Assembly (NCBI GenBank): GCA_018222345.1
Contig: JAAFAL010000002.1
Location: 1 to 64,000, forward strand
Length of the DNA stretch: 64,000 nucleotides
Direction of reading: 5' to 3'
Source of the DNA: a bacterium
GTDB lineage: Bacteria; Pseudomonadota; Gammaproteobacteria; Nevskiales; OUC007
Shown: piece by piece, positions 49,696 through 55,248 of the stretch
How positions within the stretch are numbered: the first letter of the stretch is position 1
How the letters are laid out: every line of letters begins with the position of its first letter
Translations under genes and position numbers: made by a program
The notes under the pieces: generated by a model
The model's input: the letters and a program-made list of their open reading frames with translations, nothing else
Databases searched by the model: none
What the model was told of the DNA's origin: nothing

Positions 49696-50832
49696 CTATG
49701 GCAGGCCAAAGGCTTGGCGTAGCGGTGGTGGCACCGTGCGTTGCGGCTCGCTATCCGTGGCGACGGCAAACCGGCCGCTCCAGTCCCACACCGTCCAACC
49801 GGCCTGGTTGTCTTCCAGCACCGTGCGCACGTCGGCCAGCCAGCGCGCGCGGCTGGCTGGCGGCGCGGTTTTGATGGCGCCAAATTCGGTGCAGTGGATC
49901 AAGACATCGTGCTTGTCGGCCCATAGCCGTGCCCGCGACAGCTCGGCGCTGAGCGCGGCTTTGTCCCAAGACTCGCGGCCGTACTGGCGCACGTGGTCAC
50001 GCGCCGGTTTGGGCACAGCATCGAGCGCGTCGGCCATGGCTTGCGCCTCCACTGGATACGGCAGGTCGCTGAGCAGCGACCACATCGCCCAGCCCCAACT
50101 GGCACCCTGGTGGGTAAAGTTGTGCGGTGTGTAAAAGTGAAAGCTGTAGATCACATTGCGGTCGTCCACCGGCCGCAGGCGCTCGAGGTCTTCCAGGTCG
50201 GCGTAGTGCGCGCCAGTGAGCATCACCGTGTTGCGCGGGGCGGCTTTGCGCACCGCCGCAAGGGTTTTGCGCTGCAGCGCCTGCCAGGCCTCGGCATCTT
50301 CGGTAGTGGGCTCGTTGAGCAGTTCCAGCACCAGGCGATCGGCCGGCAAGCTGGCCAGGCTGTCTGCCAGCAGCGTCCAGTCGCGGGCAAAGGCGTCACC
50401 GGCACCTGCATCGTCGAACAGCGCCAGCTTTTGCGCATCGTTCATCTGCAAGGCCACGATCACTGCAAGGCCGGCATCGATGATGGCGGCCAAGTCGGCG
50501 CGCAGTGCGGCGATGCTGGTGGCGCTAAACCGCCCACTCGCGCCTTCGGCAAGCCTGCGGCTGGACACCGGCACGCGCACATGGCCAAACCCCAGCGTGC
50601 GAATCTGCGCATAGTCGTCGGCCGTGGGGTGGTGCGCCGAGCGGATCACCGAGGCGCCGGCGGAGTCCGTCCACCAGTCACCCAGGTTGACACCGCGCTG
50701 CAGCGCAGCTTGCAGTTCAGCGCTGGGCGCCTGCTGCGCACCGGAACAGGCAGCCAACAGCAAAACTGCGAGCACGCCGAGGCCAGCAAGGCGAATAGAC
50801 GAGATAAATGTTGACCGCTGGCCGCGGCGCAT
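49696..50832 (-). CDS. Glycoside hydrolase family 5 lipoprotein
   Basis: 378 residues from ATG 50832. A lipobox (VLAVLLLAACSG) anchors it outside the cytoplasm. The TIM barrel starts at LQRGVNLGDWW. The catalytic acid/base is Glu in LVLELLNEPTTED and the nucleophile is Glu in VLIHCTEFGAIKT. Substrate binding HFYTPHNFTHQG and a late Trp (WTVWDWSGRF) fit GH5. The enzymes cleave beta-linked glucans or related polysaccharides; the exact substrate is unknown. ATG 50853 is a second possible start. It is divergent from the Pro-rich exported gene. Confidence 0.92.
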   Translation of the reverse strand: MRRGQRSTFISSIRLAGLGVLAVLLLAACSGAQQAPSAELQAALQRGVNLGDWWTDSAGASVIRSAHHPTADDYAQIRTLGFGHVRVPVSSRRLAEGASGRFSATSIAALRADLAAIIDAGLAVIVALQMNDAQKLALFDDAGAGDAFARDWTLLADSLASLPADRLVLELLNEPTTEDAEAWQALQRKTLAAVRKAAPRNTVMLTGAHYADLEDLERLRPVDDRNVIYSFHFYTPHNFTHQGASWGWAMWSLLSDLPYPVEAQAMADALDAVPKPARDHVRQYGRESWDKAALSAELSRARLWADKHDVLIHCTEFGAIKTAPPASRARWLADVRTVLEDNQAGWTVWDWSGRFAVATDSEPQRTVPPPLRQAFGLP

Positions 50833-50878
50833 TCGCTGCTTGCTACACTGCATGCGTCACATGATCGCCCACATCACC

Positions 50879-51862
50879 ATGCGTGCCAACGCCCTGAAAA
50901 TTGCCGCTGTCGTTTGCTGCGCAAGCTTTGCCGGCAGTGTCGGCGCCGAGTACCGCTATTTGATACTCGATGCGCCGGTCGATCAGCCGCAGCCGATCGA
51001 CCCGGAAACTTTGCAGCCGGAGGGCCAAGGCATCACCTACACCGCGCCTGAAGCGGCGGTTGTGCCTGCGCCGGAACCCGATGCAATGGGCGCGCATGGC
51101 AACACCGCGGCGGCGCCGTGGATTCTGGACGCGCCACCGGCCGAGCCGCAACCCGGCCCGGCGCCTAGCGACGACCCCTACGCACCGCGCTTCGAACACA
51201 ACTTGCCGTGGCCCACTGTGCTGGACGAACGCCCAGCGGGCCCGCAATCGGTGCAACCGCCGCCCGTTGCCATGCACGAACAAGCGCCCGAGACCGATTA
51301 CCAATTGCCGCCACCGCCTTTACCTAGCGGCCCACAAGTACTGGAGTTCGGCGGCCAAAGCATGAACATGCCGGCCGAGGAACCACCACCACCACGGCTG
51401 CCGAAGTCATCGGCGTTGGACTACCCAGCACCTGCCGCGCCGGTAACTCGGGCTGCGCCACCGGAGCTTGCCGATCGCTTGTCGGTGGTTGTTGACCGCC
51501 AATTGCGCGGCACCGCGCCGCTACGGCTTGCCGCCGATGGTGTGCCGATGCTCAGCATTCAAACGCTGGAGGCACTGCGCTTGCCGGTGCCGGCTAGCGC
51601 GCTCGAACGCGGCTTTGCTACGCCCGACGATTTGTCACAAAGTTATGCGCACGCGTTTGATGCTGCCGGGCAATTGCTGGTGTTGACGTCATTGGCACCG
51701 CCAACATTCAGCAGCGCTGGCGACACCGAAACTTGGGCACCCGCCGCGCCGCAGAGCCGGCCGCGGCCGTCGTCTGCACCCCTGGCCGCGCCCGAGCCTG
51801 ATACCAAATCCCGCGATTGCGCCCCCCAAATGCGCCGCGGCCGCAATACCCGAGACTGCTAA
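50879..51862 (+). CDS. Proline-rich exported protein of unknown function
   Basis: 327 residues from ATG 50879; ATG 50852 and 50861 lie upstream. The signal peptide LKIAAVVCCASFAGSVGA is cut before EYRYLIL. Residues 25-200 are unusually Pro/Ala-rich and low in complexity, with LILDAPVDQPQPI echoed by WILDAPPAEPQPGP, a decayed internal repeat. A folded segment follows at about 200-260 (LADRLSVVVDRQLRGTAPLR, LSIQTLEALRLPVPAS). This segment weakly recalls the N-terminal strands of fimbrial-usher proteins, which I cannot confirm. The tail is Pro/Arg-rich with two Cys. It is followed by a DUF1499 gene 13 bases later. Confidence 0.7.
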   Translation: MRANALKIAAVVCCASFAGSVGAEYRYLILDAPVDQPQPIDPETLQPEGQGITYTAPEAAVVPAPEPDAMGAHGNTAAAPWILDAPPAEPQPGPAPSDDPYAPRFEHNLPWPTVLDERPAGPQSVQPPPVAMHEQAPETDYQLPPPPLPSGPQVLEFGGQSMNMPAEEPPPPRLPKSSALDYPAPAAPVTRAAPPELADRLSVVVDRQLRGTAPLRLAADGVPMLSIQTLEALRLPVPASALERGFATPDDLSQSYAHAFDAAGQLLVLTSLAPPTFSSAGDTETWAPAAPQSRPRPSSAPLAAPEPDTKSRDCAPQMRRGRNTRDC

Positions 51863-52289: not shown

Positions 52290-53849
52290 TTAAACCCGAA
52301 TCCCCAGCGCCCGCACAGTTTCGACGTTGAGGTAACGATCAACCGGCAAGCCGCGTGAACGCTGGAAAGCATTCATCGCAGAAATGGTTTGCTCGCCGAT
52401 GACGCCATCGATGGGGCCGGGGTTGAAGCCCTGCGCGGCTAGCGCCGACTGGATCTGACGGATCACCGCGGGCGTGATGTTGGTCTGGCACAACACCGGG
52501 CGCCATTCCAGGCGTGCGGGCTCGACCAGCTCATGGCGCTCGACCGTGCCGTATTCGGCCGGCACCGCCACACGCTGCTGGCCGGCTGGTTTGACCAGGC
52601 GCTGAACCGGCACACGCGCCGTTTGAGCGGGCACCGAGACGCGCTCGACGCGGGCAGGCTGCGCGACCACTGTGCGCGTCACTTGCTGGAACTGCGCCGG
52701 CTGGCGCACTTCACGCACGCCGCCCGGCTGGGCGACGACCTGTTTGGTAAAGGTTTGGTACTGCGCAGGCTCTTCCACCAGGCACATGATTTCGCCGGTA
52801 GCGTTGTCCAGGCGCTCGATGGGGCCGCGGCCGGGCTTCCACACGGTGCGCGCCGGGCGCACCATCACCCGTTCGGTCACAGTCTGATACTGCGGCGGGG
52901 TCGAAACGTATTGCACCGTTTCCGGCTTGACCTGCACGCGCTCGCTGACCTGGCGGAACTGCGCTGGCACGACACGTAACTGCTCGTACGCCGGGCGGGT
53001 GACGACCTCGCGCATTTCGGTAGCGTACTGCGGCGGAGTGGTGACGACGCGTTGAGTGGCCGGCTTGGTAACAACCTGCTGACGCACACGGCGGTATTTT
53101 TCCGGCTTTTTCACCAGTGCAAAACATTGCCCGGGGATCGCCGGCGGCATCGCTGGCAAGCCGCTGACGGCAACATCGCCCGTGATTGGCCCCGATGGCA
53201 GCAAACCGTTGTGCTGCACGGGTGCGTCGGCAACTTGCAAAGGTTGGCGCACCACATCATTACGCACACGCATCGGCGCCGCGGCCGGTGCTGAGTAGGT
53301 GACTGCGGGTTGGGCTTGGGCGCGCTGGGTTTGGACGGGTTGAGCCTGAACCGGCGCACTGCGCACAACTGCTGGTTGTGCTTGCGCGGTCAGGAACTCG
53401 GTCGATGAGGGCATCGCCGACTGTTGGAATTGATAGCGCTGAAAAAAATCTCCGCGCGGCTGCTGGTCAGCCATCCGCGCCTGCTCCCTGGCCAAGCGCT
53501 CGGCAGTCACCAGTTCCTGCTCGTCGGCGTAGTCGGGCTCGTAGAATGCACGGACATCGCGCTCGCCGAGGCCATTGCCCACTTGCGCGTACTGCGGCGG
53601 GATGCCCTGACCAACAATCTGCTCGTTGGGGAACGCGGCCTGCTCGTAGCTGAGCAACTCGTCGTTATACGCCGGCTGCGGCTGCGCGGGATAGGTATAG
53701 ATTTCACCCGGCGCATAGACTGGCGTTTGCGCAGTGCGGGTGTCGAAGCCCAGATCGCCGGGGTCGCTGCTGGCGCAACCCACAATTGAGACTGCGGCAA
53801 GCGCAACCAGCGCAGTGCGCGGCAACGAAGCGAAAGGCGGACGACTCAT
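52290..53849 (-). CDS. Lipoprotein with eight 23-residue repeats and peptidoglycan-binding domain
   Basis: 519 residues from ATG 53849. The lipobox is VALAAVSIVGC. Residues 40-230 are Gln/Pro/Ala-rich and probably unfolded. Two blocks follow, each of four exact-length 23-residue units with the pattern PAQYxxVxxxVVxxPAxxxxV (52830-53105 and 52494-52769). Each block is preceded by Cys and LV (CFALVKK and CLVEE), and a third Cys follows the second block (VLCQTN). The C-terminal 65 residues are a peptidoglycan-binding domain of the PG_binding_1 type (IQSALAAQGFNPGPIDGVIG). The role is probably at the envelope, between outer membrane and cell wall. Confidence 0.88.
   Translation of the reverse strand: MSRPPFASLPRTALVALAAVSIVGCASSDPGDLGFDTRTAQTPVYAPGEIYTYPAQPQPAYNDELLSYEQAAFPNEQIVGQGIPPQYAQVGNGLGERDVRAFYEPDYADEQELVTAERLAREQARMADQQPRGDFFQRYQFQQSAMPSSTEFLTAQAQPAVVRSAPVQAQPVQTQRAQAQPAVTYSAPAAAPMRVRNDVVRQPLQVADAPVQHNGLLPSGPITGDVAVSGLPAMPPAIPGQCFALVKKPEKYRRVRQQVVTKPATQRVVTTPPQYATEMREVVTRPAYEQLRVVPAQFRQVSERVQVKPETVQYVSTPPQYQTVTERVMVRPARTVWKPGRGPIERLDNATGEIMCLVEEPAQYQTFTKQVVAQPGGVREVRQPAQFQQVTRTVVAQPARVERVSVPAQTARVPVQRLVKPAGQQRVAVPAEYGTVERHELVEPARLEWRPVLCQTNITPAVIRQIQSALAAQGFNPGPIDGVIGEQTISAMNAFQRSRGLPVDRYLNVETVRALGIRV
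52494..52769 (-). repeat. Second block of four 23-codon tandem repeats
   Basis: Four units of exactly 69 bases within the peptidoglycan-binding lipoprotein. Units begin PAQY, PAQF, PAQT and PAEY. The periodicity is clear in protein; DNA identity is lower, so the repeat is old or under selection for the pattern. Confidence 0.85.
52830..53105 (-). repeat. First block of four 23-codon tandem repeats
   Basis: Four units of exactly 69 bases beginning PEKY, PPQY, PAQF and PPQY. The block has the same length as the second (276 bases) and is separated from it by 60 bases that include GRGPIERLDNATGEIMC. Confidence 0.85.
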
Positions 53850-53940
53850 GCGGGCTCCCAGGTGGGTCACGCCCCAGCGCGTGACCGATTGTTCACCGCT
53901 TGATAGTAGCGGGCCAGTGTGCCCAGCGTCCAGAAAATGT

Positions 53941-55155
53941 CTAGCGCGCCGAATGACCTTTCAATTCAACTGTGACGCGGTCGGCAGTCTCGATGCCAGC
54001 GTAGTGCTTGCTCAGAATCTCCAGCACCTCGGGGCGGCTGAAGTTTTCCGGCACCGGCTCGTCTTCCGACAGCAGCTTGCGCAGTTTGGAACCCGACAGC
54101 AGCAGGCGGTCGTGGTCGTCCGATGGGCAGGTTTTCATCGACGCCATGGAATTGCAGTCGTTGCACCAGAAGGTCCAGTCCATTTTCAGTGGCTGGGTTT
54201 CCAGTGCGTCTTCGCCAATCTCGTCGAAGATGCCGTGGGCATCGAAGGGGCCGTAGTAGTCACCCACGCCGGCGTGGTCGCGGCCCACAATCAGGTGTGA
54301 GCAGCCGTAGTTTTGCCGGAACACCGCGTGCAGCAGCGCCTCGCGTGGGCCGGCGTAGCGCATGTCCAGCGGGTAGCCGGCCTGAATAACGGTGTTGGGT
54401 TTGAAGTAGTTGTCGATCAGCGTGCCGATGGCATTGCTGCGCACGTCGGCCGGGATGTCGCCCGGCTTGAGCTTGCCCAGCAGGCTGTGGATGAGCACGC
54501 CATCGAGCACTTCCAGCGCCACTTTGGCCAGGTATTCGTGGCTGCGGTGCATGGGGTTGCGCGTTTGGAAGGCGGCAATGGTGTTCCAGCCGCGCTTCTC
54601 AAACTCGGCGCGCGTTTGCGCCGGCGTCATGAACTGCTCGCCGTATTCTTCGGGGAAACCGCCCTGGCTTAGCACAACAACGTCGCCCGCGACATTCCAG
54701 GCTTTTTGCGCCATGACCATCTTCACGCCGGGGTGGGCGTCGTCTTCGGTCTTGAACACTTCGCGGCACTCGTGCGCTTTGTCGATCTGGTAGCTCTCGC
54801 TCACCGTAATCGTGCCCATGATGGTGTCGCGCTCTTCATCGAACAGCGCCAGCTCCGTGCCGGGCTCGACTGCCTCATCCGCCGACAAGGTAATGGGGAT
54901 GGGCCAGAACAAACCATCCGCTGTGCGCATGTCATCAACCACACCCTGCCAATCGGCTTGGCCCATGAAGCCGGTCAGCGGCGTAAAGCCGCCAATGCCC
55001 AGCATGATCAGGTCGCCCGACTCGCGCGAGGTAATCGGCAGCTTGGGCAGGCTTTCGGCGTGCGCTCGGGCACTGGCCAGCGCATCGCCTTGCGGCATCA
55101 GGGGGTTGAGATCGCCGCCGCCATGGGGGCGGACGAGGTTGCTGGTTTTGGCCAT
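53941..55155 (-). CDS. sat: Sulfate adenylyltransferase (ATP sulfurylase, Sat type)
   Basis: 404 residues from ATG 55155. The single-chain enzyme makes adenosine phosphosulfate from ATP and sulfate, or the reverse in sulfur oxidisers. The active site HxxH is in [34 protein letters not shown] is the second family motif, and residues [13 protein letters not shown] near the end hold several Cys. It is unlike the CysD/CysN heterodimer common in gammaproteobacteria. No other sulfur-assimilation gene lies next to it, so assimilatory versus dissimilatory use cannot be told. It is upstream of the peptidoglycan lipoprotein gene on the same strand (91 bases). Confidence 0.95.
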
Positions 55156-55248
55156 GATCGACACGGGTGCGGGAAATAAGGCGGCGTAGTGTAGCGGCGC
55201 GCGTCCGCGGCTTCAGCGCCCGCCTGCATGAGGCGCCGACGGGCGGCG

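Follow-up and report, generated by a model that had tools for sequence, protein, structure and literature searches.

In E. coli, Lpp tethers the outer membrane to the cell wall and sets the spacing of the membrane (PMC5736177). Elongated rods of tandem repeats are found on the cell wall in the Periscope and SasG-Aap proteins, where the repeats are stacked end to end, and in Periscope proteins the repeats have high DNA identity and their number varies quickly (PMC8201768, PMC9704523). The protein studied here is encoded in the window (the whole stretch of 64,000 nucleotides that was analysed, from a gammaproteobacterium of the order Nevskiales) and combines a predicted lipid anchor, a peptidoglycan (PG)-binding domain and two blocks of repeats. 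With a probability that we put at roughly four in five, the repeats of this outer-membrane PG-binding lipoprotein form one giant antiparallel beta-hairpin, whose arms are matched in length and project from the base.

The window protein and its repeat units

The preliminary description of the window had reported two blocks of four 23-residue repeats, each introduced by a cysteine. This observation was confirmed: the eight units occupy residues 256-347 and 368-459, the coordinates were exact, and Cys249 and Cys363 stand 7 residues ahead of block 1 and 5 residues ahead of block 2, respectively. A third cysteine, Cys461, follows block 2, and Cys32 is the cysteine of the lipobox. The repeats had been called exact, which held for their length (23 residues in all units) and failed for their sequence, as the identity between units is 22-52% at the protein and 35-54% at the DNA level. 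At this level of DNA identity the repeats are not the product of a recent DNA expansion. The lag-23 autocorrelation, summed over both blocks, was 2.97 and the maximum in 2000 shuffles was 0.60 when lags 10-40 were scanned, which excluded chance as the origin of the repeat pattern.

The same description had relied on a lipid-anchor signal and a PG-binding domain at the C-terminus, and both sequence features were real, with a lipobox at Cys32 and a match to PF01471 (Table 1). By Foldseek, the latter domain was 39% identical to the N-terminal domain of SleB (6tci) and superposed at 1.2 A over 54 columns. No enzyme domain was found in the window protein, and a C-terminal Lys, as used for Lpp attachment, is absent from its C-terminus, LGIRV. 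The annotated start of the gene is GTG, and an in-frame ATG seven codons downstream (MSRPP...) may be the true start. In most homologs the linker behind the lipid anchor differs from that of the window protein, being 60-90 residues long and rich in helix formers.

Table 1. Features of the hairpin lipoprotein gene in the window.
Feature	Positions	Strand	Basis
Hairpin lipoprotein gene, 526 aa	52290..53870	(-)	ORF and translation
Signal peptide and lipobox (..SIVGC), lipid-acceptor Cys32, +2 residue Ala	53775..53870	(-)	Sequence
Pro/Gln/Ala-rich low-complexity linker, aa 33-248 (216 residues)	53127..53774	(-)	Sequence
Cys249, base of arm 1; predicted disulfide with Cys461	53124..53126	(-)	Sequence, Cys conservation
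Arm 1 (predicted), aa 249-346: half unit and four 23-residue units (52830-53105)	52833..53126	(-)	AF2 strands, covariation
Trp344, conserved, tip end of arm 1	52839..52841	(-)	
Tip region joining the arms, RGPIERLDNATGEIMCLVEE; Gly/Asn/Asp-containing part of hairpin	52770..52829	(-)	
Cys363 at hairpin tip; no intramolecular partner predicted	52782..52784	(-)	
Arm 2 (predicted), aa 361-459: half unit and four 23-residue units (52494-52769)	52494..52790	(-)	AF2 strands, covariation
Trp456, conserved, base end of arm 2	52503..52505	(-)	
Cys461, end of arm 2, at base, adjoins PG-binding domain	52488..52490	(-)	
PG_binding_1 domain (PF01471), aa 470-522	52305..52463	(-)	46.5 bits vs Pfam gathering cut-off 23

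Two neighbouring genes were recorded. At 50693-51862 (+) lies a gene for a 389-aa Pro-rich protein with an apparent signal peptide, which matched no Pfam or NCBIfam family and adjoins the hairpin gene in Abyssibacter too. An ATP sulfurylase gene at 53941-55164 (-) stands between tauE and the hairpin gene; among 14 loci compared, this was seen only in the window genome and in one other (G069).

Pairing of the two blocks

Structure prediction by AF2 was run on residues 236-526 together with 74 homologs. It returned 18 arm strands, alternating between 7 and 12 residues and mostly with a pLDDT of about 95, with breaks at each Pro-x step. For all strands of block 1 there was a mirror image in block 2 about i+j=238. 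The pTM of this model was only 0.41, and the hairpin was read from the strand boundaries of the model and from covariation. A prediction of block 1 by itself, made with these homologs, was devoid of secondary structure (pLDDT 65, pTM 0.14), so that the strands of block 1 depend on the presence of block 2.

Covariation was followed by mean-field DCA in a set of 125 proteins with two blocks and a 4+4 layout (effective number 93). The inter-arm antidiagonal i+j=98, which corresponds to 238 in the model numbering, scored 11.8, compared with a maximum of 3.8 when block 2 was permuted 40 times relative to block 1; the axis of this ladder is thus the mirror axis of the AF2 model. Eighteen of the top 20 couplings fell on the inter-arm ladder, where 0.74 were expected, and they were spread along the whole arm. 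A parallel pairing of the blocks was ruled out, the best parallel register reaching 3.1 against 11.8 for the antiparallel one. Within the blocks of the 125 proteins, both antidiagonals and diagonals stayed at noise level (3.6 or less).

The charges agreed with the same register. Facing charged residues were opposite in 83% of the weighted cases (700 opposite vs 145 like), compared with only 39-68% at neighbouring and other registers; the window protein alone gave 5 opposite and 2 like pairs, a number too small to be read by itself. Position a of a unit in arm 1 faces position 17-a in arm 2, which sets Tyr4 against Val13, Lys14 against Glu3, Glu9/8 against Lys8/9, Glu21 against Arg19, and Pro-Ala opposite Ala-Pro. 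Covariation, charge complementarity and the AF2 model together showed that the arms zip at a fixed register. The covariation, the charge pairing and the AF2 strands make a strong case that the two blocks are the outgoing and the returning arm of one giant antiparallel beta-hairpin.

These results supported the preliminary interpretation of the blocks in part. It had taken the strict 23-residue length as a sign of a regular extended structure, and this was borne out, as the blocks were predicted as regular beta strands and the unit length is kept in homologs. It had also let the blocks span the distance between the lipid anchor and the PG-binding domain, and here AF2 and covariation gave a different picture, with the blocks paired as the arms of a hairpin. 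As a consequence of this pairing, the N-terminal anchor linker and the PG-binding domain lie at the same end, the base. The hairpin has about 98 residues per arm and 215 residues in all. With about 0.33 nm per residue, the length of a straight arm is estimated at roughly 30 nm; this may exceed the room across the periplasm, and the rod may therefore bend or lie flat.

Unit number, cysteines and spread of the family

Of 694 spacings between units of a block, 672 were 23 residues and the remainder 22, 24 or 27; a second set of 324 had 319 spacings of 23. The highly variable unit length that had been named earlier as an argument against a regular structure was thus not seen in homologs. The spacing between blocks is 43 residues in most homologs, so that the length of the tip linker is nearly fixed. 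The architectures found were 4+4, 3+3+3+3, 3+3 and 6+6, besides short forms with 2+2, 3+3 or 4+4. Nearly all homologs carry equal unit counts in both arms, and the unit number is nearly fixed within architectures. Apparently unequal arms (3+4, 2+3+3+3 and similar) were mostly explained by in-register units below the score threshold or by contig ends. One clear violation of equal arms was a stand-alone homolog with 10+6 units (L301; G721:C2, around 242725-243621). Its arm 1 contains several near-identical units (PAVYGYRSKRV.IKRGW.ETRTK), and the 10-unit arm is probably a recent tandem expansion.

In Abyssibacter, which belongs to the same family as the window genome, a 3+3 protein was found at the same locus. 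The neighbouring slt, tauE, DUF1499, GH5 and Pro-rich genes are kept around it, and this shared neighbourhood identifies it as the ortholog. Set against eleven orthologs of the 4+4 type, the protein is short of 23 residues in arm 1, from column 58-62. Arm 2 lacks 23 residues as well, with the start of the gap on a plateau at 8-21, and the mirror of the arm 1 gap is 14-18. For this one ortholog group it was shown that both arms were shortened together and at facing positions. If the arms must match in length, any gain or loss of units would have to affect both of them at once, and at mirror positions. Two 3+3 orthologs (L019 in G056 and L020 in G004) contain a 4-residue insertion in arm 1, giving a spacing of 27, with arm 2 unchanged; the insertion likely forms a bulge opposite the unchanged arm.

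In the 3+3+3+3 proteins the register predicted by analogy was 75, and it was matched only by the block pairs 1-4 and 2-3. The DCA scores were 4.27 (1-4) and 4.90 (2-3), with 2.44 or less for the other pairs and a permuted maximum of 0.39 in 32 permutations; shared ancestry lifts all block-pair scores somewhat in this set. The charge match was 66% and 69% for the two pairs vs 33-50% for the others. A four-block meander with pairs 1-2 and 3-4 was ruled out by a charge match of 48% and 33% at the register. We read these proteins, with a weaker case than for the two-block proteins, as a putative nested hairpin in which blocks 1 and 2 lead out and blocks 3 and 4 lead back. The resulting six units per arm equal the count in the uninterrupted 6+6 protein, which at its own register had 13 opposite vs 2 like charge pairs.

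All 136 two-block proteins carry the base cysteine of arm 1 (C1) as well as the cysteine after arm 2 (C3), and 3 of them have lost the tip cysteine. Four-block proteins kept all five cysteines (n=74). Short forms have either the C-terminal C3 or, in its place, an extra cysteine that precedes C1 by 4-5 residues. The joint conservation of C1 and C3 and the replacement cysteine near C1 point to the pair Cys249-Cys461, and a disulfide between them probably clamps the base of the hairpin. A bond between the two block-heading cysteines, Cys249 and Cys363, whose pairing had been put forward for testing, is unlikely, because they would lie at opposite ends of the hairpin. Since the number of cysteines is odd (3 or 5), the tip cysteine is left with no internal partner, and a dimer may possibly form through it.

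The free cysteine would also suit a domain-swapped dimer, with arm 1 of either molecule zipped antiparallel to arm 2 of its partner, and covariation and charge pairing fit such an arm exchange as well as a hairpin within one chain. We consider this dimer improbable, at something like one chance in ten, because AF2 gave the ladder at high pLDDT already for the monomer, the tip linker carries turn-type residues at a nearly fixed length (43-residue block spacing), and the nested 1-4 and 2-3 pairing is natural for one chain folding back. Less probable still is an arrangement of two independent rods in series between lipid anchor and PG domain, each block folding on itself as a beta-solenoid or meander. 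The strict unit length and the extended strands would agree with it, and SasG-like repeat rods are built in this way in other bacteria (PMC9704523). However, block 1 alone was predicted with no strand at all, and the covariation lies between the blocks and not within them; neighbouring repeats do not pair, which rejected membership among solenoids and meanders. About 16 tight turns would be required for a meander, yet the units contain few Gly, Asn or Asp residues, and the equal arms and the mirrored deletion would be left unexplained. The single-chain hairpin is kept as the preferred reading.

Short secreted hairpins (L282-L298) with 2+2, 3+3 or 4+4 units lack the PG-binding domain, which makes the hairpin an independent module; some have a Gly-rich C-terminal tail. 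They are presumed to be of alphaproteobacterial type, being placed inside the phylum and outside the class of the window. In several genomes of the order (L034, L035, L036, L038 and L040) two hairpin-family genes stand in tandem, mostly one with a block spacing of 43 residues and one with 33-34, and these could be partner pairs. On G267:C1 two inverted copies (869517-870851 and 1088471-1089805) have identical scores and in-frame TGA codons in each, and either a duplicated pseudogene or recoding may account for them.

A paralog with the 4+4 layout is present on another contig of the window genome. Of 100 near genomes, 28 contained relatives at E<=1e-5, and 68 out of the 369 from the class did so at E<=1e-10; in both searches some of the relatives were matched by their PG domain only. 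Within one order, relatives occurred in 44 of 48 genomes. A query of the genome collection with the alignment gave at least 585 confirmed loci, whereas a single-protein query of the contigs gave no match. Among the matches listed were Gamma-, Alpha- and Deltaproteobacteria, Acidobacteriota, Gemmatimonadota, Krumholzibacteriota, Kiritimatiellae and Melioribacteraceae. The best 80 of the at least 585 loci are skewed to 4+4, the query itself being 4+4, and the class-level and other genome searches are less skewed. One weak match came from the plasmid search. In Bacteroidota the hairpin module may be carried on OmpA-type proteins.

The repeat region of 17 members had no credible match in Pfam or NCBIfam (best E-values of 0.006, at chance level and inconsistent between members) and none at E<=1 among PDB sequences. 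The open-access literature searched contained nothing relevant on such a repeat or on a long hairpin in envelope lipoproteins. The hairpin family appears to be undescribed in the sources searched.

Probable envelope placement and comparison with known systems

In E. coli, lipoproteins with a residue other than Asp at +2 are sent to the outer membrane. None of the 102 homologs with a lipobox has Asp at +2 (the window protein reads SIVGC-A), and by this rule they are predicted to be outer-membrane proteins; some homologs have an ordinary signal peptide instead of the lipobox. We infer that the window protein is an outer-membrane, wall-bound lipoprotein with a projecting hairpin. The lipid would hold the N-terminus in the outer membrane and the PG domain would hold the base of the hairpin on the wall. 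Block 1 would be the outgoing arm, the Gly/Asn-containing linker the tip and block 2 the returning arm, and the ribbon would consist of 12- and 7-residue ladders in alternation, jointed at the prolines. With lipid and PG domain both bound and the hairpin leaving the base, it would lie on or beyond the wall and not between anchor and wall. It would project as a rod or ribbon of set length, which may bend at the proline joints or lie along the wall, and a second copy may be joined via the tip cysteine.

The hairpin may act as a spacer, ruler or scaffold, and a rod length set by paired repeats could be a ruler for envelope spacing. More tentatively, at a little under even odds, the family could be a new class of repeat proteins, in which units pair with mirror units of a second arm to give charge-zipped, proline-jointed rods of 2 to 6 units per arm, an envelope element across many phyla whose members are joined tip to tip via the unpaired cysteine into longer spacers. 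The hairpin provides a structure for an envelope protein family that is abundant but has no name, together with a simple rule, that of equal arms and mirrored indels, and the family offers a clean natural case of concerted insertion and deletion under long-range pairing.

When the PDB and the viral models were searched with Foldseek, nothing came up beyond local matches to long strands and the PG-binding fold already known. In the local alphabet the hairpin resembles lysenin, aerolysin and phage tail proteins by its long antiparallel paired strands, and differs from them in global fold, in its repeat pattern and in the absence of a membrane-type side-chain alternation. A membrane-inserting or pore-forming element of the aerolysin or lysenin kind, suggested by the long hairpins of the top PDB matches (lysenin, aerolysin, phi29 tail), is the least probable reading, since TM-scores were about 0.1 with an rmsd of 35-80 A, both ladder faces are rich in charges and salt-bridge pairs with no polar/apolar alternation, and lipobox and PG-binding domain put the protein in the envelope.

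With the PG_binding_1 proteins, such as SltB3 and SleB with its N-terminal domain, the window protein has the C-terminal domain in common, and the hairpin is without counterpart there. The Lpp, Pal and OmpA tethers are similar in the non-Asp +2 lipobox, the linker rich in helix formers of most homologs and the binding to PG, and they too have no counterpart of the hairpin. In the 4+4 homologs the distance from the lipid cysteine to the hairpin base is typically 61-89 residues, mostly helix formers, which is the length class of Lpp; Lpp, a trimeric coiled coil, is however attached covalently via its C-terminal Lys, whereas the window family has a non-covalent PG domain. The hairpin family is like Periscope and SasG-Aap in being elongated, built of tandem repeats and anchored to the cell wall. 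It differs from Periscope in the low DNA identity of its units and in their number, which is nearly fixed with L301 as the sole exception, and in that the units are paired across the two arms.
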